A stretch of DNA of 64,000 nt from Phytohabitans maris (GTDB lineage Bacteria > Actinomycetota > Actinomycetes > Mycobacteriales > Micromonosporaceae): NCBI RefSeq assembly GCF_031085175.1, contig NZ_JAVHUY010000056.1:1-64000 (forward strand), written 5' to 3'. Below the pieces are notes generated by a model, which was not told the DNA's origin, searched no databases, and worked only from the letters and a program-made list of their open reading frames with translations. Shown here piece after piece: positions 1,966 through 25,601 of the stretch. Within the stretch, counting starts at the first letter, position 1. The number at the start of each line of letters is the position of its first letter. The position numbers were made by a program, and so were the translations under genes.

Positions 1966-2472
1966 TCAGCTCAGCATGGAGAGGTCACGGACCAGGGCCC
2001 GGGCCTGGCGGCGCCCGCCGGCGTTCCGGGCGAAGGAGTCGGCCGGCACCACGACCACCGGGCAGGAGGCGTGCGCGGCGCAGTACCGGGCGGTCGACGG
2101 CCGGAACAGCCGCCGCCACCAGCGCCGCTGGGACGTACCGACGAAGAGCGTGTCGTTGTCGCGGTAGGCGTAGTCGACCAGGGCCCGCCACGGCCGCCCG
2201 GTGACCGGGGTGATGACCACCGGCACGTCCTCGGGGAGGGCGCCCATCGCCGCGCCGAACACGGCCACCGCCTCGGCCCGTGCCTGCTGGTCGATCTCGC
2301 CGGCGCAGCCGGTTGCGCCGCCCTGCCAGGAGGAGTCGCAGCTCCACACCCGTACGGCGTGCAGCGCGACCCCGCGCCGGCGGGCCTCGGCGACCGCGAG
2401 GCGCAACGCCCGCAGGCCGGCGAACGAGCCGTCCACTCCGGCGATGACCCGTCCCGCGTTCTCGCGTCGCAT
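1966..2472 (-). CDS. Universal stress protein, single domain
   Basis: Single-domain UspA-fold protein of 168 residues. It opens with the first beta strand GRVIAGVDGSFAGLRAL and ends with the strand ASCPVVVVP that closes the fold. The nucleotide loop reads GTSQRRWWRRLFRPST instead of the usual G-x2-G-x9-G-S/T, so the second glycine is lost and ATP binding is doubtful. The start is supported by GGAGGGGG six bases upstream on the minus strand. It is divergent from the next stress-protein gene across a 340-bp gap that contains a tandem repeat. It belongs by content to the dormancy-type island. The exact cellular role of this paralogue cannot be read from sequence. Confidence 0.85.
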   Translation of the reverse strand: MRRENAGRVIAGVDGSFAGLRALRLAVAEARRRGVALHAVRVWSCDSSWQGGATGCAGEIDQQARAEAVAVFGAAMGALPEDVPVVITPVTGRPWRALVDYAYRDNDTLFVGTSQRRWWRRLFRPSTARYCAAHASCPVVVVPADSFARNAGGRRQARALVRDLSMLS

Positions 2473-2504
2473 GGCATCCCCCTCCAGGGCTGTCTTCCGG
2501 TTCC

Positions 2505-2646
2505 TCGGCGGGCCGCCTCTCCGGCGGGCCTTGATCTTCGGCGGGCCGCGGCGGGCCCAGTTGTTCGGCGGGCCGTGGCGGGTCCGGTTCCTGGGCGGGC
2601 CACGGCGGGCCCGGTTCTCCGGCGGGCCGCGGCGGGCCTCGAGTGG
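2505..2646. repeat. 27-bp GC-only tandem repeat array
   Basis: Four consecutive 27-bp units begin at 2539, 2566, 2593 and 2620, each built on CGGCGGGCC-GCGGCGGGCC followed by a seven-base spacer. Two truncated units precede them at 2505 and 2522. The array lies between the divergent stress-protein genes, just upstream of the start codon at 2472. One plus frame is open and would encode GGPRRA-type repeats, but it has no plausible start and is not called as a gene. Confidence 0.75.
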
Positions 2647-2740
2647 ACGCTAAGGCGGCGGCCGGACGGGGACACAGAGGCGGAGGGCCCGGGACCGCAG
2701 GACGACGGTCCGGCCGGGTCGCCGAAGGTCACCCGGGGCG

Positions 2741-2755
2741 CTGACCATCGGCCCT
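2741..2755. promoter_or_regulatory. Degenerate DosR-like box
   Basis: CTGACCATCGGCCCT resembles the GGGACC(N3)GGCCC pattern seen elsewhere in the window, with the first GG altered. It lies 57 bp before the start codon at 2813, the same spacing as the boxes before 7027 and 24849. Confidence 0.4.
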
Positions 2756-2812
2756 ACAGCGGACGCCCGCGCGGGGTTACGTTCCACAGTAGAGAGTCAG
2801 CTGGAGGGCGCC

Positions 2813-3685
2813 ATGACCACCTATCCCATCATCGTCGGGTACGACGGCTCCGCGGGCGCGCACGCCGCCCTCCGCTGGGCGCTGGACGAAGGCTCGCGCA
2901 CGGGTGCGCCGGTCACGGTCATGTTCGTGTTCGAGTGGCTGGCGGTCGCCGGACCGATCGCGCCCGGGCCGCGCAACTGGCCGGACCACGGCGCCCGCGA
3001 CGACGCGCAGAAGATGGTCGACGCGGCGGTGACCCAGGCGTTCCAGACCCATCCGCGGGTGGCCGTGACCGGCGAGGTCGTCGGCGGCTCCGCCGCGATC
3101 ATCCTGCAGGAACGCTCGCGCGAGGCGCGCCTGATGGTGCTCGGCAGCCGGGGCCACGACGGCTTCGCCGAGCTCCTGCTCGGCTCCACCACGGTCGCCG
3201 TCTCGGCGCACGCGCACTGCCCCGTGGTCGTGGTGCGCGGCGAGGAGCCCGGCGGCGGTCCCGTGATCGCCGCCGTGGACGGCTCCGACTGCGCCCTGCT
3301 CGCGCTGGAGTACGCGTTCGAGCAGGCCGCGGCGCGCGACACCGGCCTGCGGGTGCTCCGCGCCTGGCAGCCGCCCGCGCCCCGCTGGCGCCCGCCGGAG
3401 TACGACCTGGAGGAGCAGGCCACGGCCGAGCGGGTCGAGCTCGACGAGCTGCTGGCGAGCTGGCGCGTCAAGTACCCGGCGGTCGACGTGGCGGTCGACG
3501 TGCTGGCCGGCCCGACCGGGCGGGTCCTGGTCGACGCGACCCGCGGCGCCCAGCTGGTGGTCGTCGGCTCCCGCGGTCGTGGCGGGTTCCGCGGCCTGCT
3601 GCTCGGCTCGGTCAGCCAGCAGCTGCTGCACCACGCCCACTGCCCCGTGGCGGTGGTCCGGGAGCTGCCCGCGCTGGCCGGCTGA
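2813..3685 (+). CDS. Universal stress protein, tandem two-domain
   Basis: Two UspA domains in 290 residues (about 1-145 and 150-290), the architecture of mycobacterial Rv2623/Rv2005c. Each domain keeps the ATP-binding loop G-x2-G-x9-G-S: GSRGHDGFAELLLGST in the first and GSRGRGGFRGLLLGS in the second. Each ends in the strand HCPV[VA]VVR. The start is preceded by CTGGAGGGC at a good distance. It heads a plus-strand run with the DUF1876, Acg and acyltransferase genes; the 64-bp gap to the next start allows co-transcription. Rv2623-type proteins bind ATP and slow growth in hypoxia in mycobacteria. A similar role here is inferred from homology and neighbours. Confidence 0.92.
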   Translation: MTTYPIIVGYDGSAGAHAALRWALDEGSRTGAPVTVMFVFEWLAVAGPIAPGPRNWPDHGARDDAQKMVDAAVTQAFQTHPRVAVTGEVVGGSAAIILQERSREARLMVLGSRGHDGFAELLLGSTTVAVSAHAHCPVVVVRGEEPGGGPVIAAVDGSDCALLALEYAFEQAAARDTGLRVLRAWQPPAPRWRPPEYDLEEQATAERVELDELLASWRVKYPAVDVAVDVLAGPTGRVLVDATRGAQLVVVGSRGRGGFRGLLLGSVSQQLLHHAHCPVAVVRELPALAG

Positions 3686-3749: not shown

Positions 3750-4019
3750 ATGACCGCGATGAAGCGCTGGAACGTGGAGATCCTGATCGGCGAGGTGGAC
3801 AACCGCACCTACGCCGAGGCGCAGCTCTACGACGAGATCCGGGACGACCTGGTCGGCACCGGCCAGGCGCGGCTGCGCCCGCAGGAGCCGGACATCCCCG
3901 AGATCGGCGACGAGATCGCGGCCGCCCGCGCCCTCTCGGACCTGGGCCACCGCCTGCTGGCCACCGCCGCCGGCGACCTGGAAGAGGCCACCCACGACCA
4001 CGTGAGCCTGGAGCGCTGA
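3750..4019 (+). CDS. DUF1876 (Rv1738-like) protein
   Basis: Small protein of 89 residues matching the DUF1876 family: KRWNVEILIGEVDNRT at the N-terminus, then an arginine-rich strand, then PEIGDEIAAARALSDLGHRLL. The best-known member, Rv1738 of Mycobacterium tuberculosis, is strongly DosR-induced and has been compared structurally with ribosome-hibernation factors. The start is fixed by AGGAGG at 3738-3743, six bases before the ATG; the longer upstream frame would run into the preceding stress-protein gene. It lies between that gene and acg with a 3-bp gap to the latter. A role in translational slowdown during hypoxia is inference from the family. Confidence 0.88.
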   Translation: MTAMKRWNVEILIGEVDNRTYAEAQLYDEIRDDLVGTGQARLRPQEPDIPEIGDEIAAARALSDLGHRLLATAAGDLEEATHDHVSLER

Positions 4020-4022
4020 GCG

Positions 4023-5009
4023 ATGGCCGGCCGAGTGCGGCGCATACCGCGGCTCTCCGTGGACACAGTGGACGAGTGCCTGCTCGCCGCCGTCGCGGCA
4101 CCGTCCATCCACAACACCCAGCCCTGGTTCTTCCGCCTGCGCGGGCGGGAGATCGAGGTGTGGGCGGACCGGGAGCGGCAACTGTCCATCCTGGACCCGA
4201 CCGGGCGGCAGATGTACATCAGCGTGGGTGCCGCGATCTTCAACCTGCGGCTCGCGCTGCTCGCCCACGGCCGGATACCGGTGCTGCGGCTGCTCCCCGA
4301 GCCCGGCCGCCGCGAGCTCGCGGCCCGGATCCAGGCCGGCCCGACGACCGCGCCGAGCCCCACGGCGGCGGTGCTGGCGGCCGCGATCGCACGGCGGCAC
4401 ACCAACCGGCACCCGTTCGCCGCCGCAGCCGTGCCCTGGCCGGTGCTGGACGACCTGATCGGGGCGGCCGCCGTGGAGGGCGCCCGGCTCACCGTCGCCG
4501 ACCCGATCGTCCGCGACGCGATCCTCTCGCTCACCGCCACCGCGAACGAGATCTTCGGCCGGAGCGACTACTACCACGCCGAACTGGACGCGTGGACCGG
4601 CGGCGGGCCGGACCGGCGCGACGGCGTACCGGCGTACGCGTACCCGCCCCGGGACGTGGGCGGGCGGCTGCCGCTGCGGCACTTCGGGCCCTCGCCCGAG
4701 GTGGCCGCGTTCGAACGGCGCCCCACGCTCATCCGGCTGTCCACCCACGACGACACCCCGTACGACTGGATCCGGGCCGGGCAGGCGCTGCAGCGGGTAC
4801 TGCTCACCGCCACCACGCGCCGGCTGGCCGCCTCCCCGGTCAACCAGGCCCTCGAACTCGCCGAGCTGCGCCGGCTGGTCAGCGGCCAGGGGTACGCCCA
4901 GATGGTGCTCCGCATCGGGTACGCCGACCCGGCCCTCGGCACCCCGCGCCGCGCCCTGTTCGACGTCCTCGACCGCGGCGCCGCCCCGGTACCGGCGGGA
5001 CAGCGATGA
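4023..5009 (+). CDS. Acg-family nitroreductase-like FMN protein
   Basis: 328 residues of the Acg (Rv2032) family, a duplicated nitroreductase-like fold. The signature SIHNTQPW (about residues 28-35) and the RRHTN/HPF and AGQALQRVLL segments are typical. Mycobacterial Acg binds FMN but lacks nitroreductase activity and is a hallmark DosR target. It follows the DUF1876 gene after 3 bp and overlaps the acyltransferase start by ATGA, so it is clearly in the same operon. A paralogue lies at 22670-23680. The flavin-sequestering role is known for the family only; nothing here shows a substrate. Confidence 0.9.
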   Translation: MAGRVRRIPRLSVDTVDECLLAAVAAPSIHNTQPWFFRLRGREIEVWADRERQLSILDPTGRQMYISVGAAIFNLRLALLAHGRIPVLRLLPEPGRRELAARIQAGPTTAPSPTAAVLAAAIARRHTNRHPFAAAAVPWPVLDDLIGAAAVEGARLTVADPIVRDAILSLTATANEIFGRSDYYHAELDAWTGGGPDRRDGVPAYAYPPRDVGGRLPLRHFGPSPEVAAFERRPTLIRLSTHDDTPYDWIRAGQALQRVLLTATTRRLAASPVNQALELAELRRLVSGQGYAQMVLRIGYADPALGTPRRALFDVLDRGAAPVPAGQR

Positions 5010-6364
5010 GCCCCACCCGGCTGAGCGCGGTCGACATGATCAACTTGGCGGTCGAGACGCCCTCGACCCCGATGGCGATCGGCGCCGTACTGCTGCTGGA
5101 CGGCGACGCGCTGCCGGACGCCGGCGGCCCCCGCACGCTCTCCGCGATCCGCCGGGCGGTCGAGAGCCGGCTGGTCGCCGCGCCCCCACTGCGCCAGGTC
5201 ATCCGCCCCGCCGGCCCGCTCGCCGGACGGCCGGTCTGGGTGGACGACCCGGCGTTCGACCTCGACCGGCACGTGCTGCGGGCGCTGGCACCGCCGCCGG
5301 GCGACGAGGCGGCCCTGCTGCGGCTGGCCGCCCGGCTGATGCGCGGGGTGCTGGACCGCCGGTACCCGCTGTGGCGGATCTGGGTCGTGACCGGCCTGGC
5401 CGGCGGCCAGGTCGCGGTCGTCGTCAAGCTGCACCACGTCCTCGCCGACGGGCTCGCGGCGATCCAGCTGGTCCTGTCGACCGTCGGCGCGGTCCCGGCG
5501 GACGGTCCCGGAGCCGACCGGCAGTGGCTGCCGGCACCCGCGCCGACCTGGGGCGAGCTGGTGGCGGACCGGGCCCGCGGCTGCCTCGCCGCGCTGCGCC
5601 GGCGCCCCCGCCGCCCGAGCCCGGCGCGGCGGGACGGCCTGCGTACCTTCGCCGCGCTGCGGCACGCCGCCCGGCTCTCCCTGAACGCCCCGGTCGGCCC
5701 GCGCCGCCGCCTGGCCGTGCTGCGGATCGACCTGGCCGAGGCGAAGCGGGTCGCGCACCGCCACGGCGGCAAGGTCAACGACGTCGTGCTGAGCCTCGCG
5801 ACGGGCGGCGTACGGTCGCTGCTGCACGCCCGGGGCGAGCCGGTCAAGGGGCTGTCGCTGCACACGACCGTCGCCATGTCCCTGCGCACGCCCGGCCAGG
5901 AGGCCGAGGGCGGCAACCGCGCCGGCGGCGTCGTCGTCCGGCTGCCCGCCGGGGAGGCCGACCCGCGCGTACGGCTGACGCTGGTCGCGGCCGAGTCCGC
6001 GCGGGCCAAGCGCGGGCAGCCGCCGACCGCCGGCAACGCGCTGCTGGTGTGGCTGGCCCGGCTCGGCCTGGCCGGATACCTCAGCCGCCACCAGCACATG
6101 GTCCACTTCGTGGAGAGCAACATCGCCGGCCCACCCGCGCCGGTCCAGGCGTTGGGCGCGCCGGTGCTGGACGTGGTGCCGATCGGCAACCTCGCCGGCA
6201 ACCTCGGCGTCTCGTTCCTGGCCCTGTCCTACGCCGGCCGGCTGGTCATCACCGTCCAGGCCGACGCCGACCGCTTCCCCGACCTACCGGTCCTGGTGGC
6301 CGGCATTCGGCGCGAATGGGCCGTCCTGAACGCCGGGTCACCCGGGTCGGCGGCCGCCGCCTAG
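5006..6364 (+). CDS. Wax ester synthase/diacylglycerol acyltransferase
   Basis: 452-residue WS/DGAT enzyme that transfers acyl groups from acyl-CoA to diacylglycerol or fatty alcohol and makes storage lipid. The catalytic HHxxxDG motif is present as HHVLADG at residues 143-149. The N-terminus (LSAVDMINLAVETPSTPMAIG) and the C-terminal SNIAGPP block also fit. The ATG overlaps the stop of the Acg gene (ATGA), so translation is coupled. Mycobacterial Tgs1 is DosR-controlled and makes triacylglycerol in hypoxia; the operon here suggests the same use. The family is about 450-480 residues, so the protein is full length. Confidence 0.9.
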   Translation: MSPTRLSAVDMINLAVETPSTPMAIGAVLLLDGDALPDAGGPRTLSAIRRAVESRLVAAPPLRQVIRPAGPLAGRPVWVDDPAFDLDRHVLRALAPPPGDEAALLRLAARLMRGVLDRRYPLWRIWVVTGLAGGQVAVVVKLHHVLADGLAAIQLVLSTVGAVPADGPGADRQWLPAPAPTWGELVADRARGCLAALRRRPRRPSPARRDGLRTFAALRHAARLSLNAPVGPRRRLAVLRIDLAEAKRVAHRHGGKVNDVVLSLATGGVRSLLHARGEPVKGLSLHTTVAMSLRTPGQEAEGGNRAGGVVVRLPAGEADPRVRLTLVAAESARAKRGQPPTAGNALLVWLARLGLAGYLSRHQHMVHFVESNIAGPPAPVQALGAPVLDVVPIGNLAGNLGVSFLALSYAGRLVITVQADADRFPDLPVLVAGIRREWAVLNAGSPGSAAAA

Positions 6365-6586: not shown

Positions 6587-6862
6587 TCACACACCGTCGC
6601 CCTTGCCCCGGGTGCTTTCCAGGGTCGCCAGGCGCCGGCGGTACTCCTCGTCGTCGATCTCGCCGCGGGCGTACCGCTCGGCGAGCACCCGCCGGGCCGT
6701 GAACGTGGCCAGCCGCGGCTGGCTCTCGCCGGCCGGCTCGTCGCGACGCAGCCACCGGTAAAGCAGGACGCCACTGCCGATCAGGACGCCCCAGAAAAGC
6801 ACCATGTTGAGGGCCATGGCGGCGTATCCCCAGCCGCTCATGCCGTGGTCGAACCAGTACAT
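6587..6862 (-). CDS. Small membrane protein with SHOCT domain
   Basis: 91 residues with one N-terminal membrane helix (about 11-38, ALNMVLFWGVLIGSGVLLY) and a C-terminal short SHOCT motif (RRVLAERYARGEIDDEEYRRRLATL). SHOCT segments are short oligomerisation modules found at protein ends; the function of this protein is unknown. I placed the start at the ATG at 6862 (MYWFDHGMSGWGY), which begins just before the membrane helix and has GGGGAG upstream. The frame stays open further upstream, but that would run through the box at 6958. It is convergent with the acyltransferase and divergent from the stress protein at 7027. Confidence 0.75.
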   Translation of the reverse strand: MYWFDHGMSGWGYAAMALNMVLFWGVLIGSGVLLYRWLRRDEPAGESQPRLATFTARRVLAERYARGEIDDEEYRRRLATLESTRGKGDGV

Positions 6863-7026: not shown

Positions 7027-8349
7027 ATGCCACGCGAGCCCGTACGTGAGATCGTCGCCGGCATCGACGGATCGGCCGGCGCCACCGCCGCGCTGGACCT
7101 GGCCGCCGCCGAGGCGGCCCTGCGCTCGGCCCCGCTCACCCTCGTACACGTCACCGCCGGCGACCGGTCGGGCGCCCTGCCGGACGCGGTCGCGCGGGTA
7201 CGGGCCACGCGTCCCGACCTCACCGTCCACGCCGAACGGCTCGGCGGCGACCCGGCGACCGCGCTCGCGTCCCGCTCGGCCGGCGCGAGCCTCCTCGTGC
7301 TCGGGCACGACGCCTACCGCCGCGGCCGGCGGGGCGCGCCACACACCACCGGCTCGGTCGCCGCGACCCTGCTCGGGCTCGCCACCGTGCCGGTCCTCGT
7401 CTGCCCCGAGAGCCCCGCGAGCGCCCACGGCGCGGGCCACCCGGCCACCGCAGGCGCAAGCGGGCCGGCCGCCGGCACCATCGGCGCGAGCGGGCCGGTC
7501 ATCGGCACCATCGGCGCGAGCGGGCCGGTCGCCGGCACCATCGGCGCGAGCGGGCCGGTCGCCGGCACCATCGGCGCGAGCAGGCCGGTCGCCGGGACCA
7601 TCGGCGCGAGCAGGCCGGTCGCCGGGACCATCGGCGCGAGCAGGCCGGTCGCCGGGACCATCGGCGCGAGCAGGCCGGTCGCCGGGACCATCGGCGCGAG
7701 CAGGCCGGTCGCCGGGACCGTCGGCGCGAGCAGGCCGGTCGCCGGGACCGTCGGCGCGAGCGGGCCGGTCGCCGGCTTGAGTGGCACGGGTCTGAGCGCG
7801 ACCGGCGGCGCGGGTGACGTGGTCGTCGGGGTCGACGGGACGCCCGGTTCGGGGGCGGCGCTGCGGTTCGGCTTCGCGGAGGCGGACCTGCGGCACGCCT
7901 CGCTGACCGCGATTCACCTCTGGCCGTCGGCGGACGACCAGAGCCCGAGCGGCCTGAGCGCGAGCAGCCAGGTCCCGGGCGACCGGAGCCCGGGCGGCGA
8001 GAGCCCGAGTGGGCGGAGCCCGGGCGGCCAGAGCCCGAGCCACTGGAGCACGAGCGGCCCGCGCCCGGACGGGCGGAGCACGAGCTTCCCGGGCCCGGAC
8101 GGGCGGAGCGCGGACGGGCTGAGCGCGGCGGAGGGGGCGTTCCTCGACCTGCTGGAGACCTGGTCCGCCAAGTACCCGGACGTTCCCGTCCGGCTGGCGG
8201 TCCGGCACGGCCTGGACGCGGCGATCGTGCTGGCCGCCGCGTCCCGTTCCGCGCGGCTCGTGGTGGTCGGCGGGCTGGCCGGGCCGGCCCTGTCGGCGCT
8301 GGTCACCCGGGCGGCGTGCCCCGTCGCGGTCATCCCCGCGACGGCTTGA
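7027..8349 (+). CDS. Two-domain universal stress protein with repeat linker
   Basis: 440 residues. The first UspA domain (about 1-135, starting EIVAGIDGSAGATAAL and ending TVPVLVCPE) is followed by a linker made of eleven 10-residue units (GASGPVAGTI type, residues 143-252). The second UspA domain (about 260-440) carries an S/G/P-rich insertion at about 300-365 and ends CPVAVIPA. Neither domain keeps the full G-x2-G-x9-G-S loop; the second is visibly shortened there (VVGGLAGPALSALVTRA). The start at 7027 has GGGAGG eight bases upstream. The linker is a coding minisatellite and could vary in length between strains. ATP binding is unlikely, and a scaffold role is only a guess. Confidence 0.82.
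   Translation: MPREPVREIVAGIDGSAGATAALDLAAAEAALRSAPLTLVHVTAGDRSGALPDAVARVRATRPDLTVHAERLGGDPATALASRSAGASLLVLGHDAYRRGRRGAPHTTGSVAATLLGLATVPVLVCPESPASAHGAGHPATAGASGPAAGTIGASGPVIGTIGASGPVAGTIGASGPVAGTIGASRPVAGTIGASRPVAGTIGASRPVAGTIGASRPVAGTIGASRPVAGTVGASRPVAGTVGASGPVAGLSGTGLSATGGAGDVVVGVDGTPGSGAALRFGFAEADLRHASLTAIHLWPSADDQSPSGLSASSQVPGDRSPGGESPSGRSPGGQSPSHWSTSGPRPDGRSTSFPGPDGRSADGLSAAEGAFLDLLETWSAKYPDVPVRLAVRHGLDAAIVLAAASRSARLVVVGGLAGPALSALVTRAACPVAVIPATA
7453..7782 (+). repeat. Coding minisatellite, eleven 30-bp units
   Basis: Eleven 30-bp direct repeats in phase with the reading frame. Units 5-10 carry an arginine codon (GASRP) and the others glycine (GASGP). Several adjacent units are nearly identical, which points to recent slippage or unequal crossing-over. 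There are no unique spacers. Confidence 0.95.
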
Positions 8350-9214: not shown

Positions 9215-10255
9215 TCAGCCGTGCGACAGGACGACCTTGAGCGCGCCCGTCTCCGCCGGCTTGGCGAAGACGTCGTACGCGGCCATGAAGTCGTCCAGCG
9301 CGAACCGGTGCGTGATCATGTGGCCGACGTCGAGCTGGCCGGCGGCGAGCATGGTGAGCAGGGTCGGCGTCGAGTACGTGTCGACCAGGCCGGTCGTGAT
9401 CGTGATGTTCTTGATCCAGAGCTCCTCGAGGTGGAGCAGGGCCGGCTTGCCGTGCACGCCGACGTTCGCCACGTGGCCGCCGGGGCGCACGAGCGTCGTG
9501 CAGGCCTCGAACGACGCCGGCGAGCCGACCGCCTCGATGACGACGTCCGCGCCGAGCCCGCCGGTGATCGCCTGGACCACCTCGCGGGGGTCCTCGTCGG
9601 CGTTGACCGCGACGTCCGCCCCGAACTGCTTGGCCGCCTGCAGCCGGCTCGCCGCCTTGTCGACGGCGATGACGTGCGACGGTGAGTACAGCTTGGCGGT
9701 CAGGATCGCGGCCAGGCCGATCGGGCCGACCCCGACCACCACGACCGTGTCGCCGGGGCGCACCTTGCCGTTGAGGACGCCCACCTCGTACGACGTGGGG
9801 AGGATGTCGGCGAGCATGACGGCGGCCTCGTCGGTGACGTTCGCCGGGAGCCGGTAGGTGGACAGGTCGGCGAACGGCAGCCGGGCGTACCGCGCCTGCA
9901 CGCCGTCGACCCGGTGGCCGAGGATCCAGCCGCCGCCGCCCAGGCACTGCCCGTAGCTGCCGGCGCGGCAGTAGCGGCACACCCCGCACGCGGAGACGCA
10001 GGAGGCCAGGACGCGGTCGCCACGGTTGAGGCCGGTGACGCCGGTGCCGGTGTCGACGACGGTGCCGACCGCCTCGTGCCCGAGGATGCGGCCGGGCTCG
10101 ACCGCCGGTACGTCGCCGGCCAGGATGTGCAGGTCCGTGCCGCAGATCGTCACGGTGTCGACCTCGATGATGGCGTCGCGGGGATCGCTGATGGTGGGGT
10201 CGGGGACCTCGGTCCAGGACCTCTGCCCGGGCCCACCGTAGACGAGTGCTTTCAT
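9215..10255 (-). CDS. Zinc-dependent alcohol dehydrogenase
   Basis: 346-residue medium-chain dehydrogenase that oxidises an alcohol or reduces an aldehyde with NAD(P). GHEAVG carries the catalytic zinc ligands, the four-cysteine structural zinc lobe is C-x2-C-x2-C-x7-C (SACGVCRYCRAGSYGQC region), and the Rossmann loop is VGVGPIGL. Substrate cannot be told. The start at 10255 (MKALVYGGPG) is the family start and has GGAGGG upstream on the minus strand. A near-perfect DosR-type palindrome lies 76 bp upstream. Confidence 0.9.
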   Translation of the reverse strand: MKALVYGGPGQRSWTEVPDPTISDPRDAIIEVDTVTICGTDLHILAGDVPAVEPGRILGHEAVGTVVDTGTGVTGLNRGDRVLASCVSACGVCRYCRAGSYGQCLGGGGWILGHRVDGVQARYARLPFADLSTYRLPANVTDEAAVMLADILPTSYEVGVLNGKVRPGDTVVVVGVGPIGLAAILTAKLYSPSHVIAVDKAASRLQAAKQFGADVAVNADEDPREVVQAITGGLGADVVIEAVGSPASFEACTTLVRPGGHVANVGVHGKPALLHLEELWIKNITITTGLVDTYSTPTLLTMLAAGQLDVGHMITHRFALDDFMAAYDVFAKPAETGALKVVLSHG

Positions 10256-10331: not shown

Positions 10332-10347
10332 CGGGACCAAAGTCCCG
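10332..10347. promoter_or_regulatory. DosR-like box, best match in window
   Basis: CGGGACCAAAGTCCCG differs from the mycobacterial consensus core GGGACTWWAGTCCC at one central base. It lies 76 bp upstream of the alcohol dehydrogenase start on the minus strand and 40 bp past the end of the corA remnant. Confidence 0.65.
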
Positions 10348-11911: not shown

Positions 11912-11977
11912 CCCCTCACACCCCCAGCGTGCGCGACGTCGCGTTGATCAAGCAGGGCCGGTCGGCCCCGCCCCGCC

Positions 11978-12891: not shown

Positions 12892-12969
12892 GGGGTACCT
12901 CCCTGCTCTCGCTCTCGACGGTGCGCCTTCGCGACCTTGACCGGTCAGGAGCGGTCGACCCCGGCGCGG

Positions 12970-12983: not shown

Positions 12984-13050
12984 GGACGGCGGCGCGGGCC
13001 GTCGCACGGCGTCCCGCGGGCGCGCCAGGGGGCCGCGGCCCGATCTGGTC

Positions 13051-18476: not shown

Positions 18477-19075
18477 ACGAGCGGGCCGTGGCCGCGAAGG
18501 CGGCCTCGCTGCTGCTGCGCTACCCGGACCCGGAGGTGCTCGCGGCGCTGCCGGCGGTGGTGGCCGCCCTCGACGAGCTGCCCGGGCGGCTCGCCACCCC
18601 CCTCGCCGCGGTCGCCGCCCACCGCGCCGCCGCCGACCCGATCCGGCTCGCCGCCGAGTACGTGGAGACGTTCGACTTCCGCCGCCGGTGCGCGCTGCAC
18701 CTGACGTACTACACCCACGGCGACACCCGCGCCCGCGGGCCGGCCCTCGCCGGCTTCGCCGCGGCGTACCGCGCCGCCGGGCTGGCCGTGACCGGTGGCG
18801 AGCTGCCCGACTACCTGCCCGCCGTGCTCGACCTCGCCGCCGCGCACGGCAGCGGCTGGGACCTGCTCGGCGGGCACCGCGTCGGCCTGGACCTGCTGGT
18901 GTCGGCGCTGGAGCGGGACCGGTCCGTCTACGCCCACGCGGTGCGGGCGGTACGCCTGCTGCTCCCCCCGCCCACGCCCGCCGACCTCGCCGCCGCGGCG
19001 GGACTGGCCCGCGGCGGCCCGCCGGTCGAGCGGGTCGGCCTCCAGCCGTACACCCCCACCGGAGGGCGCCCGTGA
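18473..19075 (+). CDS. narJ: Nitrate reductase assembly chaperone
   Basis: 200 residues of the NarJ/TorD-like helical chaperone family, which helps insert the molybdenum cofactor into NarG before membrane docking. The family segment EYVETFDFRRRCALHLTYYTHGDTR is present at about 62-86. GTG start overlapping the narH stop (GTGA), and the next gene overlaps in the same way, so all four nar subunits are translationally coupled. Confidence 0.92.
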   Translation: MNERAVAAKAASLLLRYPDPEVLAALPAVVAALDELPGRLATPLAAVAAHRAAADPIRLAAEYVETFDFRRRCALHLTYYTHGDTRARGPALAGFAAAYRAAGLAVTGGELPDYLPAVLDLAAAHGSGWDLLGGHRVGLDLLVSALERDRSVYAHAVRAVRLLLPPPTPADLAAAAGLARGGPPVERVGLQPYTPTGGRP

Positions 19076-19920
19076 ACACCCTGCTCTGGGTCATCGTGCC
19101 GTACCTGTCCCTCGCGGTCTTCGCCGGCGGGCTGGTCTGGCGGCGCCGCTACGACAAGTTCGGCTGGACCACCCGCTCTTCCCAGCTGTACGAGAGCGCG
19201 GTACTGCGCTGGGGCAGCCCGCTGTTCCACTTCGGAGTGTTGATGGTCCTCGTCGGACACGTCGGCGGCCTGCTGGTGCCGAAGTCGTGGACCGAGGCGG
19301 CCGGGATCAGCGAGCACGCCTACCACCTCATGGCGGTCTTCATCGGCACGGTGGCCGGGCTCTGCACGCTGATCGGCATGGCCATCCTCATCCTGCGCCG
19401 CCGGCTGACCGGCCCGGTCTTCGCCGCCACCACCCGCAACGACAAGGCCATGTACGCGGTCCTCGCCACGGTCATCCTCCTCGGGCTCTGGGCCACGCTC
19501 CGCGCCAACGTCGCCGGCGACGGCTACGACTACCGGGAGACCGTCTCGCCCTGGTTCCGGTCGCTGTTCTACCTCCGCCCCGACCCCGAGGTCATGGCCG
19601 CGGTGCCGACCACCTTCCAGGTCCACGTGCTGGCCGCGTTCGCGCTGTTCGCGTTCTGGCCGTTCACCCGCCTCGTGCACGCGTTCAGCGCGCCGGTCGG
19701 CTACCTCACCCGCCCGTACGTGGTGTACCGCGGCGGCGGCCCCCGCGGGGGGCGGCGCGGGGGGGGGGGCGGGGGGGGGCGGGTTCCGGGGGGACCCCCC
19801 ACCCGGGGCGCGGCCCCGCAAGGCGCCCCCCCCCCCCCGCCCCGCGGCGGCCCCGCCCCCCCCCCCCGGCGCGGGGGGCCCCGCCCCGCCCCCCCCCCCG
19901 GCTGGGAGAGGCTCCGGTGA
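19072..19920 (+). CDS. narI: Nitrate reductase gamma subunit, cytochrome b
   Basis: 282 residues; five membrane helices oxidise menaquinol and pass electrons to NarH. Probable heme ligands are His53 and His63 in one helix pair and His185 and His203 in another; the 18-residue spacing of the last two equals that of E. coli NarI His187/His205. The protein looks normal to residue 220 (RPYVVYR). Residues 221-282 are translated from an almost pure G/C homopolymer patch and are G-, P- and R-rich with no family similarity. The stop overlaps the narK start. The core should fold; the tail is suspect. Confidence 0.85.
   Translation: MNTLLWVIVPYLSLAVFAGGLVWRRRYDKFGWTTRSSQLYESAVLRWGSPLFHFGVLMVLVGHVGGLLVPKSWTEAAGISEHAYHLMAVFIGTVAGLCTLIGMAILILRRRLTGPVFAATTRNDKAMYAVLATVILLGLWATLRANVAGDGYDYRETVSPWFRSLFYLRPDPEVMAAVPTTFQVHVLAAFALFAFWPFTRLVHAFSAPVGYLTRPYVVYRGGGPRGGRRGGGGGGGRVPGGPPTRGAAPQGAPPPPPRGGPAPPPRRGGPRPAPPPGWERLR
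19732..19905. repeat. Anomalous G-run/C-run patch at the narI 3' end
   Basis: About 175 bp with only a handful of A or T. The first part is dominated by G runs (up to ten) and the rest by C runs (up to about thirteen). The composition is unlike the flanking GC-rich coding sequence. Base-calling or assembly degeneration is the likeliest cause; real slippage or a G-quadruplex-forming tract is the alternative. The frame stays open across it and ends in a normal GTGA overlap with narK. Confidence 0.8.
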
Positions 19921-21119
19921 GCACCGCGAAGCCGGGGCGCGCCACGCTCAACCTGGTCCTGGCCACCGTCGGCTTCCTGGTCTGCTTCTGGGCGTGGGCG
20001 CTGGTCAGCCCGCTCGGCCCCGGGCTCAAGGACCGGCTGGGGCTGAGCTTCGCCGCCCAGTCGTTCCTCGTCGCGGTGCCGGTCGTGGTCGGCTCGCTGG
20101 GGCGCATCCCGGTCGGCGCGCTCACCGACCGGTTCGGCGCCCGGCTGATGTTTCCCGCGGTCAGCCTCGCCACCGTCGTACCGGTGCTGGTGCTCGCGTA
20201 CGTCCAGGACTCCTACGCCGCGCTCGTCGTGGCCGGCTTCTTCCTCGGCATCGGCGGGACCTCCTTCGCGGTCGGGGTGCCGCTGGTCTCCGGCTGGTAC
20301 CCGCCGGCGCGGCGCGGCTTCGCCCTCGGCGTCTTCGGCGTCGGCATGGGCGGCACCGCGATCTCCAACTTCACCACCGTGCGCCTCGGCGACGCGTACG
20401 GCGAGAAGACGCCGTTCTTCATCGTCGCCGCCGCGCTCGTGGCGTACGCGGCGGTGGCGGCGGCGCTGGTGCGGGACGCGCCCGGGCAGCGGGCCGGCGG
20501 CTCGGCGCTGCGCCGCACCGCCGCGGTGGCCCGGCTCGGCGTCACCTGGCAGCTCTGCTTCCTCTACGCGGTCGGCTTCGGCGGGTTCGTCGCGTTCAGC
20601 GTCTACCTGCCCGCGTACCTGCGCACCGCGTACGACCTGTCCACGAACGACGCGGCGCTGCGCACGGCCGGCTTCGTCGTGCTGGCCGTGGCCGCCCGGC
20701 CCGCCGGTGGCTGGCTCTCCGACCGGCTGCATCCGGTGCCGGTGCTGGTGGCCTGCTTCGGCGGCGTCGCCGGGCTCGCGGTGGTACAGGCGTTCCAGCC
20801 ACCCCTGGTACCGGTGGGCACCGCCGCGTTCCTGGGGATGGCGGCGTTCCTGGGCGCCGCGAGCGGCGCGGTCTTCGCCCTCGTCGGGAAGGTCGCCCCG
20901 GGCGACAAGGTGGGCGCGGTCACCGGTGTCGTCGGCGCCGCCGGCGGCCTCGGCGGCTTCGTCCCGCCCCTGGTCATGGGCTGGGTGTACGGGATCGAGG
21001 ACTCCTACGCGATCGGCCTGATGCTGCTGTCGGACGTGGCGCTCGCCGCCGCCGTCTACACCGCCGTCAAGATGGCCGGGCTGGCCCGACCCTGCTCCGG
21101 GACCGCCACGGCCGGTTGA
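19917..21119 (+). CDS. narK: Nitrate/nitrite transporter, MFS
   Basis: 400 residues, about twelve membrane helices of the NarK/NasA branch of the major facilitator family. The family block GIGGTSFAVGVPLVSGWYPP (about 108-127) and the glycine-rich GVGMGGTAISNF segment are seen. It imports nitrate and/or exports nitrite for the reductase encoded just upstream. GTG start with GTGA overlap to narI. In mycobacteria narK2 is DosR-controlled, consistent with the box before narG. Confidence 0.93.
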   Translation: MSTAKPGRATLNLVLATVGFLVCFWAWALVSPLGPGLKDRLGLSFAAQSFLVAVPVVVGSLGRIPVGALTDRFGARLMFPAVSLATVVPVLVLAYVQDSYAALVVAGFFLGIGGTSFAVGVPLVSGWYPPARRGFALGVFGVGMGGTAISNFTTVRLGDAYGEKTPFFIVAAALVAYAAVAAALVRDAPGQRAGGSALRRTAAVARLGVTWQLCFLYAVGFGGFVAFSVYLPAYLRTAYDLSTNDAALRTAGFVVLAVAARPAGGWLSDRLHPVPVLVACFGGVAGLAVVQAFQPPLVPVGTAAFLGMAAFLGAASGAVFALVGKVAPGDKVGAVTGVVGAAGGLGGFVPPLVMGWVYGIEDSYAIGLMLLSDVALAAAVYTAVKMAGLARPCSGTATAG

Positions 21120-21646: not shown

Positions 21647-22081
21647 TCAGGCGGCGAGGAGCGCGACCAGGTCGGTGCCGGTGACGATGCCCAGCGGGTA
21701 GCCGTCGGTGTCGGCGACGGCGACCGCGTCGGTGCCGGTCGCGCGCATGAAGCGGGCGACGTCCAGGATGGTGGCGAGCGGCCCGACCACGGCCGGTCGC
21801 GTCGCCAGCGTCGAGGCCACCCGGCGCACCGGGAGCGAGGCCGGGTCGCGGGCCCACTCGGCGGCGATCGCGCGGTCGGAGAGGACGCCGGCGCACCGGC
21901 CGTCGCGGTCGACGGCGACGAGGTGGCGGTGGTGCAGCCGGACCATCGCGCGGAGCGCGTCGTCGAGCGGCGCGTCCGCCGGGATCGTGTCCACCGGATC
22001 GCTCATCACGTCCGCGGCGAGCCGCGCGGTCAGCCTCCGGGTGGGACGGATGGGTGGCGGTGCGACGTAGACGGCCTTCAT
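21647..22081 (-). CDS. CBS-pair domain protein
   Basis: 144 residues with two CBS domains (about 24-78 and 85-142). The first has ADVMSDPVDTIPADAPLDDALRAM; the second ends GYPLGIVTGTDLVALLA. CBS pairs bind adenosine nucleotides and sense energy state. DosR-controlled Hrp1 (Rv2626c) of mycobacteria has this architecture and size. The start at 22081 has GGGGGTGAGCCACC upstream. Divergent from the GerW-like gene. Confidence 0.85.
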   Translation of the reverse strand: MKAVYVAPPPIRPTRRLTARLAADVMSDPVDTIPADAPLDDALRAMVRLHHRHLVAVDRDGRCAGVLSDRAIAAEWARDPASLPVRRVASTLATRPAVVGPLATILDVARFMRATGTDAVAVADTDGYPLGIVTGTDLVALLAA

Positions 22082-22174
22082 GGTGGCTCACCCCCGGGGA
22101 GGGATCGGATTGACCCACCGTGAGCGTGCGCGGGGCGGCAGGATACGGGGCAGAGCCCGAATACCCGGGTGTCC

Positions 22175-22188
22175 GGGCCGTCCGGCCC
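22175..22188. promoter_or_regulatory. Weak DosR-like box
   Basis: GGGCCGTCCGGCCC is a perfect palindrome resembling the boxes at 6958 and 12970, but GC-only at its centre. It lies 64 bp before the start at 22253 and 94 bp from the start at 22081. Chance occurrence is quite possible in this composition. Confidence 0.3.
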
Positions 22189-22252
22189 CGCCGGCCCCGG
22201 AGGCCGCGGGTCAGGATGGGAGGCGCTGGTCCAACTCCAGGAGGTGGAGAGC

Positions 22253-22618
22253 ATGACCGACACGACCACGAGAACGCTGGAGCTGCTGGAGAGGGTGCGC
22301 GGCGGCATGACCGCGGGCGCGGTGGTCGGGGAGCCGATCGTCCAGGACGGCATCACCGTCGTCCCGGTCGCCCGGGTCTCCGGCGGCGGGGGTGGCGGCG
22401 GCGGAAGCGGGCCGGGCGCGGACGGCCGGGAGGGCAACGGCACCGGCGCCGGGTTCGGGCTGTCGTCGCGCCCGGTGGGGGCGTTCGTCATCAAGGACGG
22501 CACGGTCAAGTGGCGGCCGGCGGTCGACGTCAGCCGGATCATCCTCGGCGGACAGGTCGTCGCCGTCGTCGCGCTGCTGACCATCCGCGCGATCGTCAAG
22601 GCACGGCACCGGTCCTGA
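22253..22618 (+). CDS. GerW (YtfJ) family spore protein
   Basis: 121 residues. N-terminal ERVRGGMTAGAVVGEPIVQDGITVVPVARV and the following glycine-rich turn, then GFGLSSRPVGAFVIKDG, match the GerW/YtfJ family of sporulation proteins common in Bacillus and actinomycetes. The C-terminal VVAVVALLTIRAIVKA is hydrophobic and could be membrane-associated. AGGAGG stands eight bases before the ATG at 22253. Function in actinomycetes is poorly defined. It lies 51 bp before the second Acg-type gene. Confidence 0.8.
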   Translation: MTDTTTRTLELLERVRGGMTAGAVVGEPIVQDGITVVPVARVSGGGGGGGGSGPGADGREGNGTGAGFGLSSRPVGAFVIKDGTVKWRPAVDVSRIILGGQVVAVVALLTIRAIVKARHRS

Positions 22619-22669: not shown

Positions 22670-23680
22670 ATGGCTGGCGGCTTCGGTGCGGCAGCGGACG
22701 AGGCCACACGGCTCAGGGCGGCCGCCATGGCGGCGGGGCGGGCCCCGTCGATCCTGAACACCCAACCCTGGCGGTGGCGGCTGCGCGGCGACGAGCTCGA
22801 CCTGTACGCGGTCCGCTCGCGGCGGGTCGACTCGATCGACCCGGAGGGGCGGCTGCTGACGGTGAGCTGCGGCGCCGCGCTGCACCACGCCCGGGTGGCG
22901 CTCGCCGCGGCGGGGCGCGAACCGGCCGTGACCAGATGTCCCGATCCCGGCGACCCGGACCTGCTCGCCCGGATGCGGGTGGCCGGGCCGCACGAGGTAC
23001 GGCCGGAGGACCGCGACGACGAGCGGAGCATCGGGCGGCGGCGCTCGGACCGGCGCCCGTTTCCGGCGACCGAGCCGGTGCCGGACGAGACGCTCGCCGC
23101 GCTGGAGGCGGCCGCCACCGGCGAGGGCGCGTGGCTGCACCGGGTCGGCCCCGAGCAGATCGCCTTCCTGGTCACCGCCGGGGAGGGCGCGGCGAGCATC
23201 CAGGGCCGGGACGAGGCGTACTCGTCGGACCTGCACGCGTGGACCCGGCGCGGGCACGCCAGCGGCGAGGGCGTACCGCCGGAGACCGTGGTGTCGCCGA
23301 CCGAGCGGCGGGTACCGCTGCGCGACTTCACGCTGGACGGCGAGTCGCTGCTGGAGCCCGGGTACGGCGACGACCGGTACGCGCAGTACCTCATCGTCGC
23401 GACCGACGGCGACCGGCCGCTCGACTGGCTGCGGGCCGGCGAGGCGGTCAGCGCCGTGTGGCTCGCCGCCACGTCCCGGGGCCTGGCCGGCTCGGCGATG
23501 AGCGACGTCGTCGAGGTGCCCGGCGCCCGCGCGCTCCTGACCGGGCTGCTGGACCGGCACGGGTACCCGCAGCTCGTGCTCCGCTTCGGCCTGGACATGC
23601 AGCAGCGCCGGCCGCCGGCGAGCCCCCGGCAGCCGCCGGCCAGCACGATCGAGATCGGGGACGGCGCCGCGCAGCCCTGA
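22670..23680 (+). CDS. Acg-family nitroreductase-like FMN protein, second copy
   Basis: 336 residues with the Acg signature SILNTQPW (about 27-34), RRRSDRRPF and the second-half AGEAVSAVWLAA/YPQLVLRFG segments. It is a paralogue of 4023-5009, with clearly diverged sequence, so not a recent duplication. A DosR-like box lies just after its end and probably serves the following stress-protein gene. FMN binding is expected from the family. Confidence 0.88.
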   Translation: MAGGFGAAADEATRLRAAAMAAGRAPSILNTQPWRWRLRGDELDLYAVRSRRVDSIDPEGRLLTVSCGAALHHARVALAAAGREPAVTRCPDPGDPDLLARMRVAGPHEVRPEDRDDERSIGRRRSDRRPFPATEPVPDETLAALEAAATGEGAWLHRVGPEQIAFLVTAGEGAASIQGRDEAYSSDLHAWTRRGHASGEGVPPETVVSPTERRVPLRDFTLDGESLLEPGYGDDRYAQYLIVATDGDRPLDWLRAGEAVSAVWLAATSRGLAGSAMSDVVEVPGARALLTGLLDRHGYPQLVLRFGLDMQQRRPPASPRQPPASTIEIGDGAAQP

Positions 23681-23689
23681 ACCGGGACC

Positions 23690-23703
23690 GGGCCGAAGGT
23701 CCC
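23690..23703. promoter_or_regulatory. DosR-like box
   Basis: GGGCCGAAGGTCCC (complement GGGACCTTCGGCCC), 87 bp upstream of the start at 23791. Confidence 0.55.
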
Positions 23704-23790
23704 CCGCACTGAGTCTGGCCGGCCCTGCCGCCGCGTCGCGGGGTGTCGGCACGGTGAAGAGCACCGACGTCGGAGAGCTTTGGAGCGACC

Positions 23791-24657
23791 ATGACCCTGC
23801 ATTCCATCGTTGTCGGCTACGACGCCTCCCCGGACGCCGAGTCCGCCCTCGAGTGGGCGCTGGACGAGGGCGCCCGCACCGGGACCGCCGTCACGCTGGT
23901 GTACGCCGTCGAGTGGCGGGCGGTCGCCGGACCCATCGGCCTGGCCCCGGCCGTCTGGCCCGACGACAGCGTGCGGGAGGCGGCGGAGAAGTTCATCGCC
24001 ACCGCCCTGGCCCGCGCCCGCGAGTCGTACCCGGGCGTGTCGGTCTCCGGCACGGTCGCGACCGGTGGCTCCGTCGCGGTACTCGTCGAGATGTCACGCC
24101 AGGCCCGCCTGGTGGTCCTCGGCCGTCGCGGGCACGGCGGCTTCGCCGGCCTGCTGGTCGGGTCGACCAGCGTCGCGGTGTCGGCGCACGCGCACTGCCC
24201 GGTCGTCGTCGTCCGGGGTGGGCAGGCACCGGTCGGCGGGCCGGTCGTCGTCGGGTTCGACGGCTCGGACTGCGCGCAGCTCGCCGTGGAGTTCGGGTTC
24301 GCCGAGGCGGCCCGGCGCGGCGTGGAGCTCCGGCTGGTCCAGGCCTGGACCCCGCCACCGCCGCGGTGGCAGCCGGTCGAGTTCGACCTCGACCAGGAGG
24401 TCGCGCGGGAGCGGGCCGGGCTGCAGGAGGTGGCCGCCGGCTGGCAGGACAAGTACCCCGAGGTGCCGGCGACCGTCCACGTCGTCGCGGGTCCGCCCGC
24501 CGAGGCGCTGATCGGGGCGAGCCAGGGCGCCCAGCTCGTGGTGGTCGGCTCCCGGGGGCGGGGTGGCTTCCGCGGCCTGCTGCTGGGCTCGGTGAGCCAG
24601 CAGCTGCTGCACCACGCGCACTCCCCCGTCGTGGTAATCCGGCAGCTTCCCGCCTAG
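23791..24657 (+). CDS. Universal stress protein, tandem two-domain
   Basis: 288 residues, two UspA domains (about 1-142 and 148-288). Both ATP loops are complete: GRRGHGGFAGLLVGST and GSRGRGGFRGLLLGS. It is clearly a close paralogue of 2813-3685 (shared EWALDEGARTGT and LLGSVSQQLLHHAHSP-type segments). The start at 23791 (MTLHSIVVGYD) has GGAG about eight bases upstream. Followed by a palindromic terminator at 24685. Confidence 0.93.
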   Translation: MTLHSIVVGYDASPDAESALEWALDEGARTGTAVTLVYAVEWRAVAGPIGLAPAVWPDDSVREAAEKFIATALARARESYPGVSVSGTVATGGSVAVLVEMSRQARLVVLGRRGHGGFAGLLVGSTSVAVSAHAHCPVVVVRGGQAPVGGPVVVGFDGSDCAQLAVEFGFAEAARRGVELRLVQAWTPPPPRWQPVEFDLDQEVARERAGLQEVAAGWQDKYPEVPATVHVVAGPPAEALIGASQGAQLVVVGSRGRGGFRGLLLGSVSQQLLHHAHSPVVVIRQLPA

Positions 24658-24684
24658 CCGGCGTCCCGCGCCGGACCCGCGCCG

Positions 24685-24738
24685 GTGATCGAAGCTCCCC
24701 TCATGTCGTTCCAACGACGTGAAGGGAGCTTTGATCAC
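24685..24738. terminator. Palindromic bidirectional terminator/repeat, copy 3
   Basis: GTGATCGAAGCTCCC pairs with GGGAGCTTTGATCAC (one G-T), with an inner TCGTT/AACGA stem. Same family as 21576-21629. Confidence 0.7.
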
Positions 24739-24776
24739 CGTGTGAGCCGTGCGGGCCCAGGGGTCCCGTCCGGTTC

Positions 24777-24790
24777 GGGACCTTCGCCCC
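24777..24790. promoter_or_regulatory. DosR-like box
   Basis: GGGACCTTCGCCCC, preceded by TTC as in the mycobacterial consensus flank. It ends 58 bp before the ATG at 24849, which supports that start over the ATG at 24792 directly next to the box. Confidence 0.55.
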
Positions 24791-24848
24791 TATGCCGCCG
24801 GCCTGCCCCGCACCAGTCTTTGACCGGACGCGTGTACCGAGGGAGACC

Positions 24849-25601
24849 ATGCTGAAAGCCAGGACTGTGCCGGGGCCAGCCGCCGGCGTCGACGTGCGGG
24901 TGCGCGGGCGGGTGGCGCCGGGCGATCTGGACCGCGCCGCGCAGGCGGTCGGCGCGGTCGTGTCGGGGTACGGGCTCGACCTCTCCGCCGTGCGCGTGCG
25001 GCTCTCCGGCGCCGAGCCGGCCCTGGTCCAGGTCAACCTCCGGGTGGCCGGCGCACCGGCCCGGATCCAGATCCCCGGGCATTCGGTCCGGTCGGCGATC
25101 GCCGCGGCCGCCACCCGGCTCGACCGGCAGATCGGCCGGCTCACCACCGCGTGGCAGCCCTGGCCGTGGCCGGACCCGGAGCGGCGCACGCTAGGCTTTC
25201 CCGGGCCGGGCACGGTCGTCCGGTCGAAGGCCTACCGGCTGCACGTCGGGATGCCCTGCCAGGCCGCGTCGTTCATGAATGCGATGGATTACGACGTCAT
25301 GATGTACACCGACGCCGAGACCGGGGAGGACGCGATCGTCTACCGGGCCGGTCCGACCGGGCTGTGCCTGTGCCGGCAGCGCAGCATGCACCCGCCGTCG
25401 CTGCCGGTGACGCTGCCGCTGACGGTCAACCCGCGCAAGGTGCCCAGCCTCACCGTGACACGGGCCGCGGCGCGTCTCGCGGAGGGCTGGCTGCCGTTCG
25501 TCTTCTTCACCGACGGGGCCACCGGGCGCGGAAACCTGCTCTACCGGCGGTACGACGGCGACCTCGGCCTTATCGCACCCGCCGCGGGAAACCGCCTATA
25601 G
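24849..25601 (+). CDS. Long HPF-like ribosome hibernation protein (Rv0079-like)
   Basis: 250 residues. The N-terminal part (about 13-100, VDVRVRGRVAPGDLDRAAQAV ... AAATRLDRQIGRL) follows the HPF/S30AE N-domain pattern. It is followed by two copies of the S30AE C-terminal domain: about 140-180 (NAMDYDVMMYTDAETGEDAIVYR) and about 200-247 (LAEGWLPFVFFTDGATGRGNLLYRRYDGDLGLI). The C-domain normally dimerises 70S ribosomes; a tandem copy is the form seen in DosR-regulated Rv0079. The start has GGGAG upstream and fits the box at 24777. The ribosome-silencing role is inferred from the family. Confidence 0.82.
   Translation: MLKARTVPGPAAGVDVRVRGRVAPGDLDRAAQAVGAVVSGYGLDLSAVRVRLSGAEPALVQVNLRVAGAPARIQIPGHSVRSAIAAAATRLDRQIGRLTTAWQPWPWPDPERRTLGFPGPGTVVRSKAYRLHVGMPCQAASFMNAMDYDVMMYTDAETGEDAIVYRAGPTGLCLCRQRSMHPPSLPVTLPLTVNPRKVPSLTVTRAAARLAEGWLPFVFFTDGATGRGNLLYRRYDGDLGLIAPAAGNRL

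Follow-up and report, generated by a model that had tools for sequence, protein, structure and literature searches.

In Mycobacterium tuberculosis, the targets of the response regulator DosR (DevR) are scattered, and narGHJI lies outside the regulon core. In mycobacteria, hypoxia induces the ribosome hibernation factor RafH by way of DosR (PMC10799931). In Streptomyces coelicolor, the OsdK/OsdR pair induces the nitrate reductase NarG2 under hypoxia (PMC9739842), and Streptomyces and its relatives present an “anaerobic paradox”: many anaerobic genes, yet no growth without oxygen (PMC5069765). The stretch considered here (“the window”) comprises positions 1-64,000 of contig C52 (NZ_JAVHUY010000056.1; 66,849 bp) of Phytohabitans maris, whose 9.87-Mb genome is assembled in 95 contigs. 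Positions 1966-25601 (“the island”) are very probably the effector part of a dormancy regulon of the DosR/OsdR type, the regulators themselves being found on another contig, C48.

The original prediction of a “DosR-like dormancy regulon” is borne out by a regulator pair, by a box at dosR itself and by the enrichment of both a family matrix and a strict core motif. The genome has a DosR orthologue, a probable heme-GAF kinase, boxes above chance and the characteristic targets: universal stress proteins (Usp), Acg, DUF1876, triacylglycerol synthase, CBS and RafH. Genes were called by codon bias and named by matches to Pfam, NCBIfam and PDB sequences, the start codons being our own calls. The claimed five Usp genes, DUF1876 gene, two acg genes, wax ester synthase/diacylglycerol acyltransferase (WS/DGAT), CBS-pair protein and zinc alcohol dehydrogenase (ADH) were all recovered in this way (Table 1), as was the HPF-like protein, whose sole PDB match is RafH. 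For narGHJI-narK, the claim stands for NarH, NarJ, NarI and a NarK-like transporter and falls short for narG, which is split by an in-frame stop; the claimed FMN-barrel protein is a weak call, having no Pfam match and PPOX matches below cut-off. We take the island genes to be homologues of the M. tuberculosis DosR targets Rv2623, Rv1738, Rv2032/acg, tgs1, hrp1, narK2 and Rv0079: by architecture, the tandem-domain Usp at 2813-3685 is presumably Rv2623-like and the CBS-pair protein at 21647-22081 hrp1-like, and the WS/DGAT at 5006-6364 is presumably tgs1-like.

The dosR and dosS homologues that the original prediction proposed to look for beside a matching site both lie on C48 (C-numbers denote contigs of whichever genome is named), with a box at dosR, and a DosR-type response regulator is thus present in the genome. 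The gene dosR (L001:7225-7866 on C48) is the sole match in its own genome at E 1e-55 or better; its product has DevR as best PDB match (3c3w, E 9e-74), aligned over the entire length, and keeps D8, D9, D54, T82, K104, K179, K182 and N183, which we take to be the functional residues. DosS has the domain order GAF-GAF-HisKA_3-HATPase. The best matches of its first GAF domain are DevS GAF structures and 2vzw, presumably DosT (E 3e-51 to 6e-46), and its positions 149 and 171 are H and Y, which we assume to be the heme histidine and the distal tyrosine; it appears to be a heme-GAF-type histidine kinase of the DosS/DosT type. The two genes stand tail to tail, both with open reading frames. A second GAF-HisKA_3 candidate was seen on C27.

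Toward its end, C48 carries, in order, genes for a cNMP-binding (CRP-like) protein, glyceraldehyde-3-phosphate dehydrogenase (GAPDH), DUF1876, PntAA, PntAB, PntB (assigned by eye and by position), PorG, PorA, PorB and a GltD-like Fe-S flavoprotein with a PorD-like end, then dosS, dosR, CBS-BON, acg, usp and acg, and finally an insertion sequence (IS). The last 1923 bp of C48 are identical to the first 1923 bp of the window and belong to this DDE-transposase IS, which occupies contig ends at window 1-1947, C48 67770-69710, C48 1-1923 (reversed) and C44 1-1949. Because the same IS starts C44 and, reversed, C48, there are two IS copies and two possible contig joins, between which the IS flanks do not discriminate. 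Gene content favours the joining of C48 to the window: inspection by eye of the first 16 kb of C44 revealed no regulator or stress genes of the C48-tail kind, and in the congener genome G031 (others are G057, G091 and G103), dosR, CBS, usp, acg, ADH, GAPDH and narGHJI-narK all share one 70.6-kb contig. As a separate observation, some 40 short repeats across the genome match the outer 24-31 bp of the IS, as though it lay in, or targeted, a palindromic repeat.

The boxes were evaluated in the C48 tail plus the island (“the 40 kb”; 40.0 kb) against a 282.6-kb control from the same genome, which includes window 25.7-27.3 kb with two plain palindrome sites and whose loci were chosen by hand, several of them for their Usp genes. 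A matrix made from 25 published S. coelicolor sites gives four matches of at least 11 in the island and one elsewhere in the window (26598), and its top match is the box at 11954 (score 18.35); at a threshold of at least 12, this matrix has four matches in ten other loci and none in the dosR-bearing locus L001, and a matrix from the same family was therefore used instead. This family matrix comprises 35 sites of 22 non-congener loci. A survey of 35 dosR loci (34 genomes, 29 genera, mostly one per genus with long contigs preferred, picked from 100 of the 121 genomes with a DosR match) found the exact palindrome in the 300 bp before dosR at 25 of the 35 loci, vs. 89 of 1022 other genes.

At a score of at least 10, the family matrix has 15 matches in the 40 kb, of which ten are plausible (window 10332, 11954, 12969, 13050, 22174, 23689 and 24776; C48 53484, 63924 and 64714); the implausible five are four Usp-linker repeats and one site within a C48 gene. 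At a score of at least 12 there are eight matches in the 40 kb vs. three in the control (P 7e-6), one of which lies upstream of a chromosomal acg on C7 and may be a genuine target; with the matrix reversed, the counts are 0 and 4. The strict core, GGGNC-N4-GNCCC with an A/T centre, corresponds to the DosR box quoted in PMC2947987, with N for H. It occurs seven times in the 40 kb vs. once in the control (1 and 0 for its reversed form); the whole genome has 44 such sites, a rate at which 0.18 would be expected in 40 kb, and one further strict-core site lies just outside the island, at 26599. Equally frequent matches in random coding DNA had been named as one outcome that would sink the idea; here both matrix and strict core are enriched, and their reversed controls are not. 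The plain palindrome, GGGNC-N4-GNCCC with any centre, occurs eight times in the island for a genome-rate expectation of 1.1 (460 in 9.87 Mb; P 2e-5) and 11 times in the 40 kb vs. 13 in the control, with 9 of the 11 sites intergenic (6 of 16 for the reversed form); by itself it is weak, unspecific evidence.

Six of the nine palindromes listed originally (10332, 12970, 13051, 22175, 23690 and 24777) hold up, with scores of 10.9-17.2, and three do not: 6958, at the repeat-bearing Usp, reaches 7.5, its spacer lacking one base, and 2741 and 11978 score below 6. The fixed 56-58 bp claimed between box and start codon is not seen, the distance from box centre to nearest called start being 62.5-119.5 bp for the seven window boxes. 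The letters of CGGGACCTTTGGCCCT, the box at 13050, recur upstream of a G031 PPOX gene. A pattern with the wrong spacing, GGGNCCNNNNGGNCCC, was discarded (33 sites, none in the window and one in the C48 tail). Two neighbouring GGGNC-N4-GNCCC sites at 26599-26631, upstream of a MarR-like gene, were also seen just outside the island.

Several observations weigh against reading the island as a DosR regulon. The operon usp2-DUF1876-acg-WS/DGAT, whose M. tuberculosis counterparts are the clearest, lacks a good box (its best scores 6.9 with the family matrix), and it is gene content that places it in the regulon. First-order Markov resamples expect 5.8 plain palindromes in the island, vs. eight observed; spacers of 5 and 6 are also raised in island intergenic DNA, and the reversed palindrome is enriched as well (16 in the 40.0 kb vs. 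25 in the control). Eight other strict sites (two each on C12 and C22, one each on C30, C45, C50 and C81), drawn from the 32 outside the island, C34 and 26599, have neighbours without island homologues. The exact box is missing at dosR in 10 of the 35 survey loci, G031 included, and the sites of the family matrix were picked by palindrome, so that the matrix is not de novo. C48 may run into C44 instead. The proposal that the island “couples nitrate respiration” is not supported: boxes sit between narG and its divergent neighbour, yet narG has a stop in the assembly; Usp, Acg or DUF1876 is found in the fetched flanks of 17 of 80 named narH loci (some flanks being cut by contig ends); and a box of at least 10 lies upstream of narG in 11 of 79 cases vs. 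79 of 1044 other genes. On these two counts, a coupling of nar to DosR as a general rule was rejected.

The narG stop bears on one alternative, which we consider unlikely: that the regulon is decaying, and the island has ceased to function in full in this strain. As assembled, narG consists of two open reading frames in the same frame (13177-13971 and 13981-16830), the 949 codons remaining after the TGA are open, and the catalytic subunit of NarGHI is not intact. The stop position is open in all 80 relatives that align at both flanks, out of 81 compared (G031 and 80 named loci). At E 1e-60 or better the genome yields a single NarH match, and hence no second NarGHI was found. A CorA fragment, the absence of dosSR from a syntenic C7 locus, and the IS that would separate regulator and island if C48 joins C52 could also be signs of decay. 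On the other side, the dosR and dosS reading frames on C48 are uninterrupted, damage to other island genes was not noticed (without a systematic look), and the narG stop may be either a nonsense mutation or an error of assembly or base calling.

Slightly less likely still is a horizontally transferable hypoxia module, a genomic island or plasmid with its own regulator, which is close to what the original prediction suggested. Some observations run in its favour: narH is patchy, with NarH in two of six genus genomes; dosR lies on the island contig in G031 and beside an IS in the present genome; and, among 72,556 plasmid records, 37 contain a DosR homologue (E 1e-40 or better), some of these being the size of a chromosome. 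One such record, the 926-kb Streptomyces plasmid record NZ_CP023408.1, has DosR at 341764-342408 about 2 kb from a nar match at 344195, the DosR homologue and narGHJI lying within 341764-350908. Against it, the dosR genes of five congeners, including both island genomes, form one clade (support 0.987, poor inside the clade), dosS has genus-level identity, and the best NarH relatives (the best 80 of a longer list) are Micromonosporaceae; none of the cargo genes traced (dosR, dosS, acg4 and NarH) gave a sign of foreign origin. The G+C content of the island, 0.748, is near that of its surroundings (0.734 for the remaining window and 0.725 for other sampled loci totalling 250 kb). Neither integrases nor conjugation genes turned up among the proteins scanned, which are part of all genes, and att sites were not searched for. 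Segments of the right flank have matches, at dispersed positions, on the main contigs of congeners, and a plasmid location in the present genome is accordingly not supported; the G031 island contig, C3 (70,560 bp), has no terminal overlap of at least 16 bp.

Rather than being imported, dosR seems to have changed its place. In G057, G103 and G091, dosS, dosR and acg are kept together. In P. maris, a seat of the G057 type is found on C7 (142345-145861, L205), with flanking blocks of 81-89% DNA identity: dosSR is gone, a GAF protein stands in its place, and the acg retains its box (score 14.5), while the dosSR DNA on C48 is 86-90% identical to that of G057. In G031, at C1:688873-690750 (L209), an open dosS stands tail to tail with a shredded dosR remnant, the intact dosR being on the island contig; the DNA around this dosS shows no alignment to the G057 seat, and that it is the same place is thus not established. 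Since the congeners' dosR genes form one clade and occupy different seats, the regulator appears to be native to the genus and relocated, with no support for outside import of dosR. By eye, the gene before the G031 remnant resembles phosphoketolase; in G103, C1 carries an intact pair, and C2 a second, incomplete dosR and, at another place, a split dosS.

That the island is a general stress-gene cluster with incidental GC-rich palindromes and no DosR control is very improbable: such DNA often contains the plain palindrome, the reversed form of which is equally enriched in the island, and the usp2 operon lacks a good box, but the strict core and the matrix separate the 40 kb from the control where their reversed forms do not, and boxes of this kind stand before dosR in loci from across the family.

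If the DosR regulon reading is correct, a fall in oxygen or a rise in nitric oxide (NO) would be sensed by the heme-GAF kinase DosS, encoded on C48, which would then phosphorylate DosR; we infer that phosphorylated DosR binds the GGGNC-N4-GNCCC boxes and switches on the target genes. Carbon would be stored as lipid (WS/DGAT), ribosomes parked (the RafH-like protein), FMN or nucleotide ligands held (Acg, Usp, CBS) and electron flow maintained (ADH, Nar). The operon-like run before dosS might contribute a transhydrogenase and a 2-oxoacid:ferredoxin oxidoreductase, and a cluster on C34 might add cytochrome bd, pyruvate formate-lyase (Pfl) and phosphoketolase.

This C34 cluster, the regulators on C48 and the boxed acg on C7 show that the regulon is not “packed into one 24-kb island,” as had been supposed. 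Four of the 44 strict sites genome-wide fall at 152-168 kb of C34, and seven family-matrix boxes of at least 12.7 at 147.5-168.2 kb, a stretch chosen for its four strict sites. The genes there encode CydA (by Pfam) and CydB (by eye, with no Pfam match), two Acg proteins, an ABC ATPase (by eye), a P-type cation ATPase, a PPOX protein, a radical-SAM protein assigned as the Pfl activase, PflB with a glycyl-radical domain, an acyl-CoA synthetase with a GNAT domain, a short HPF, a CBS protein, phosphoketolase and a zinc ADH. The same kinds of genes, and Por-Pnt, recur in the fetched flanks of the 35 dosR loci: phosphoketolase at 11 (nine genera, one genome twice), seven of them with a box, acyl-CoA synthetase at six, cation ATPase at five, Pfl at four, cytochrome bd at two and Por-Pnt at one, these box counts having no background count beside them. 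For phosphoketolase, P is about 3e-14 if two xfp copies per 8 Mb are assumed, a figure to be taken as a guide only, as the loci share ancestry.

Linkage and boxes thus suggest that DosR is tied to fermentation in the family. A broader proposal is more tentative, although quite possible: that DosR of Micromonosporaceae commands an anaerobic energy programme beyond dormancy, in which fermentation to acetate, formate and ethanol supplies ATP to parked, supposedly strict aerobes, and that the regulator itself moves. Such a programme would include phosphoketolase, Pfl and its activase, an acyl-CoA synthetase-GNAT fusion of the ATP-yielding type, 2-oxoacid:ferredoxin oxidoreductase, transhydrogenase, cytochrome bd and alcohol dehydrogenase. 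We know of no Pfl or phosphoketolase branch in the M. tuberculosis DosR regulon. A link from DosR to phosphoketolase, pyruvate:ferredoxin oxidoreductase (PFOR) or Pfl was not found in the literature covered, mainly open-access main texts: in the passages covered, PMC2947987 ties Xfp in Rhodococcus equi to no DosR box, PMC11876180 has PFOR solely in a reference title, PMC6456759, an acetylation review, makes no DosR-fermentation link, and PMC10034137 contains none of the fermentation terms.

If one oxygen/NO switch does drive fermentation, ATP-yielding acetate formation and a high-affinity oxidase, the “anaerobic paradox” would become testable in soil bacteria, and work on mycobacterial dormancy would gain a non-pathogen for comparison, with a larger, clustered regulon. 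The different seats of dosR in close species amount to a natural experiment on the clustering of a regulon with its regulator.

The features of the window are collected in Table 1, together with the C34 cluster. The Usp-like gene at 7027 has near-identical 30-bp units (10-residue repeats) at about 7470-7775, between partial Usp domains, and the zinc ADH gene is adjoined by the C-terminal fragment of a CorA-type transporter at 10387-10719. For the “spore-former” of the original prediction, the basis is a weak YtfJ/GerW match, at 22253-22618.

Table 1. Annotated genes and predicted DosR boxes of the window, and the second box cluster (window positions unless a contig is given).
Feature	Position	Strand	Evidence or score
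Insertion sequence, DDE_Tnp_1_6 transposase, open reading frame 155-1753	1-1947	+	Pfam
Universal stress protein, one domain	1966-2472	-	PF00582
Universal stress protein (usp2), tandem domains, no good DosR box upstream	2813-3685	+	PF00582
DUF1876 / Rv2632c-like	3750-4019	+	PF08962; best solved relative Rv1738, 4wpy E 4e-17
Acg-family FMN oxidoreductase	4023-5009	+	NF047509 E 5e-85
WS/DGAT	5006-6364	+	PF03007, PF06974
SHOCT-domain protein; homologue present in G031 island	6587-6862	-	PF09851
Usp-like protein, three partial Usp matches, 30-bp tandem repeats between second and third	7027-8349	+	Pfam
Zinc alcohol dehydrogenase; G031 island copy 87% identical	9215-10255	-	PF08240, PF00107
Predicted DosR box CGGGACCAAAGTCCCG, upstream of ADH	10332-10347		score 17.2
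CorA, C-terminal fragment only	10387-10719	-	PF01544 238-292 of 292
Universal stress protein, tandem domains	11030-11911	-	PF00582
Predicted DosR box AGGGCCGGTCGGCCCC, upstream of Usp 11030-11911, missed by the original prediction	11954-11969		score 11.7
Possible FMN-binding PPOX-type protein, weak	12391-12891	-	sub-cut-off TIGR03666/TIGR03618
Predicted DosR box between PPOX-like gene and narG	12969-12984		score 14.2
Predicted DosR box CGGGACCTTTGGCCCT, between PPOX-like gene and narG	13050-13065		score 16.5
narG, in-frame TGA at 13969-13971	13177-16830	+	TIGR01580 on 13981-16830
narH	16830-18476	+	PF14711, PF13247
narJ	18473-19075	+	PF02613
narI	19072-19920	+	PF02665
narK-like nitrate/nitrite transporter, below NCBIfam cut-off	19917-21119	+	PF07690; TIGR00886 E 4e-55
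CBS-pair protein	21647-22081	-	PF00571
Predicted DosR box between divergent CBS and YtfJ genes	22174-22189		score 10.9
YtfJ/GerW-like protein, weak match	22253-22618	+	PF09579
Acg-family FMN oxidoreductase	22727-23680	+	NF047509; 2ymv E 2e-36
Predicted DosR box upstream of Usp 23791-24657	23689-23704		score 13.7
Universal stress protein, tandem domains	23791-24657	+	PF00582
Predicted DosR box CGGGACCTTCGCCCCT, upstream of RafH-like gene	24776-24791		score 15.8
RafH-like ribosome hibernation factor, Rv0079-type	24867-25601	+	PF16321; 8whx E 5e-26
Second box cluster	C34:145001-168500 (L210, L211)		strict sites and matrix boxes

Among known systems, the closest is OsdK/OsdR of S. coelicolor, the window being very probably a new case of a known regulon. 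The OsdKR region (SCO0167-SCO0219; PMC5069765) shares with it orthologues of DosS and DosR, the half-sites and spacing of the box, a set of genes around the regulator (usp, a nitroreductase-family gene, a zinc-type ADH, PPOX, a nitrate transporter and narG2H2J2I2), and predicted boxes upstream of narG2, usp and osdR. Its main text does not mention phosphoketolase, pyruvate formate, cytochrome bd, ferredoxin or transhydrogenase, and the sections covered name none of the WS/DGAT, DUF1876 and RafH-like genes that are in the cluster here; P. maris differs further in having Pnt-Por before dosS and Pfl/Xfp/Cyd in another cluster, and in that the island as assembled is apart from the regulators, at a contig break in an IS. 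With the M. tuberculosis DosR (DevR) regulon, the likeness is in the regulator, the sensor GAF domain and the box core (box: PMC2947987). The island protein resembles RafH/Rv0079 (PMC10799931) over residues 8-242 of 244 in the PDB sequence match, and is a putative factor of this kind. What differs in P. maris is the gene content (RafH-like, WS/DGAT, DUF1876, Pnt-Por and Pfl-Xfp-Cyd) and the seat of dosR.

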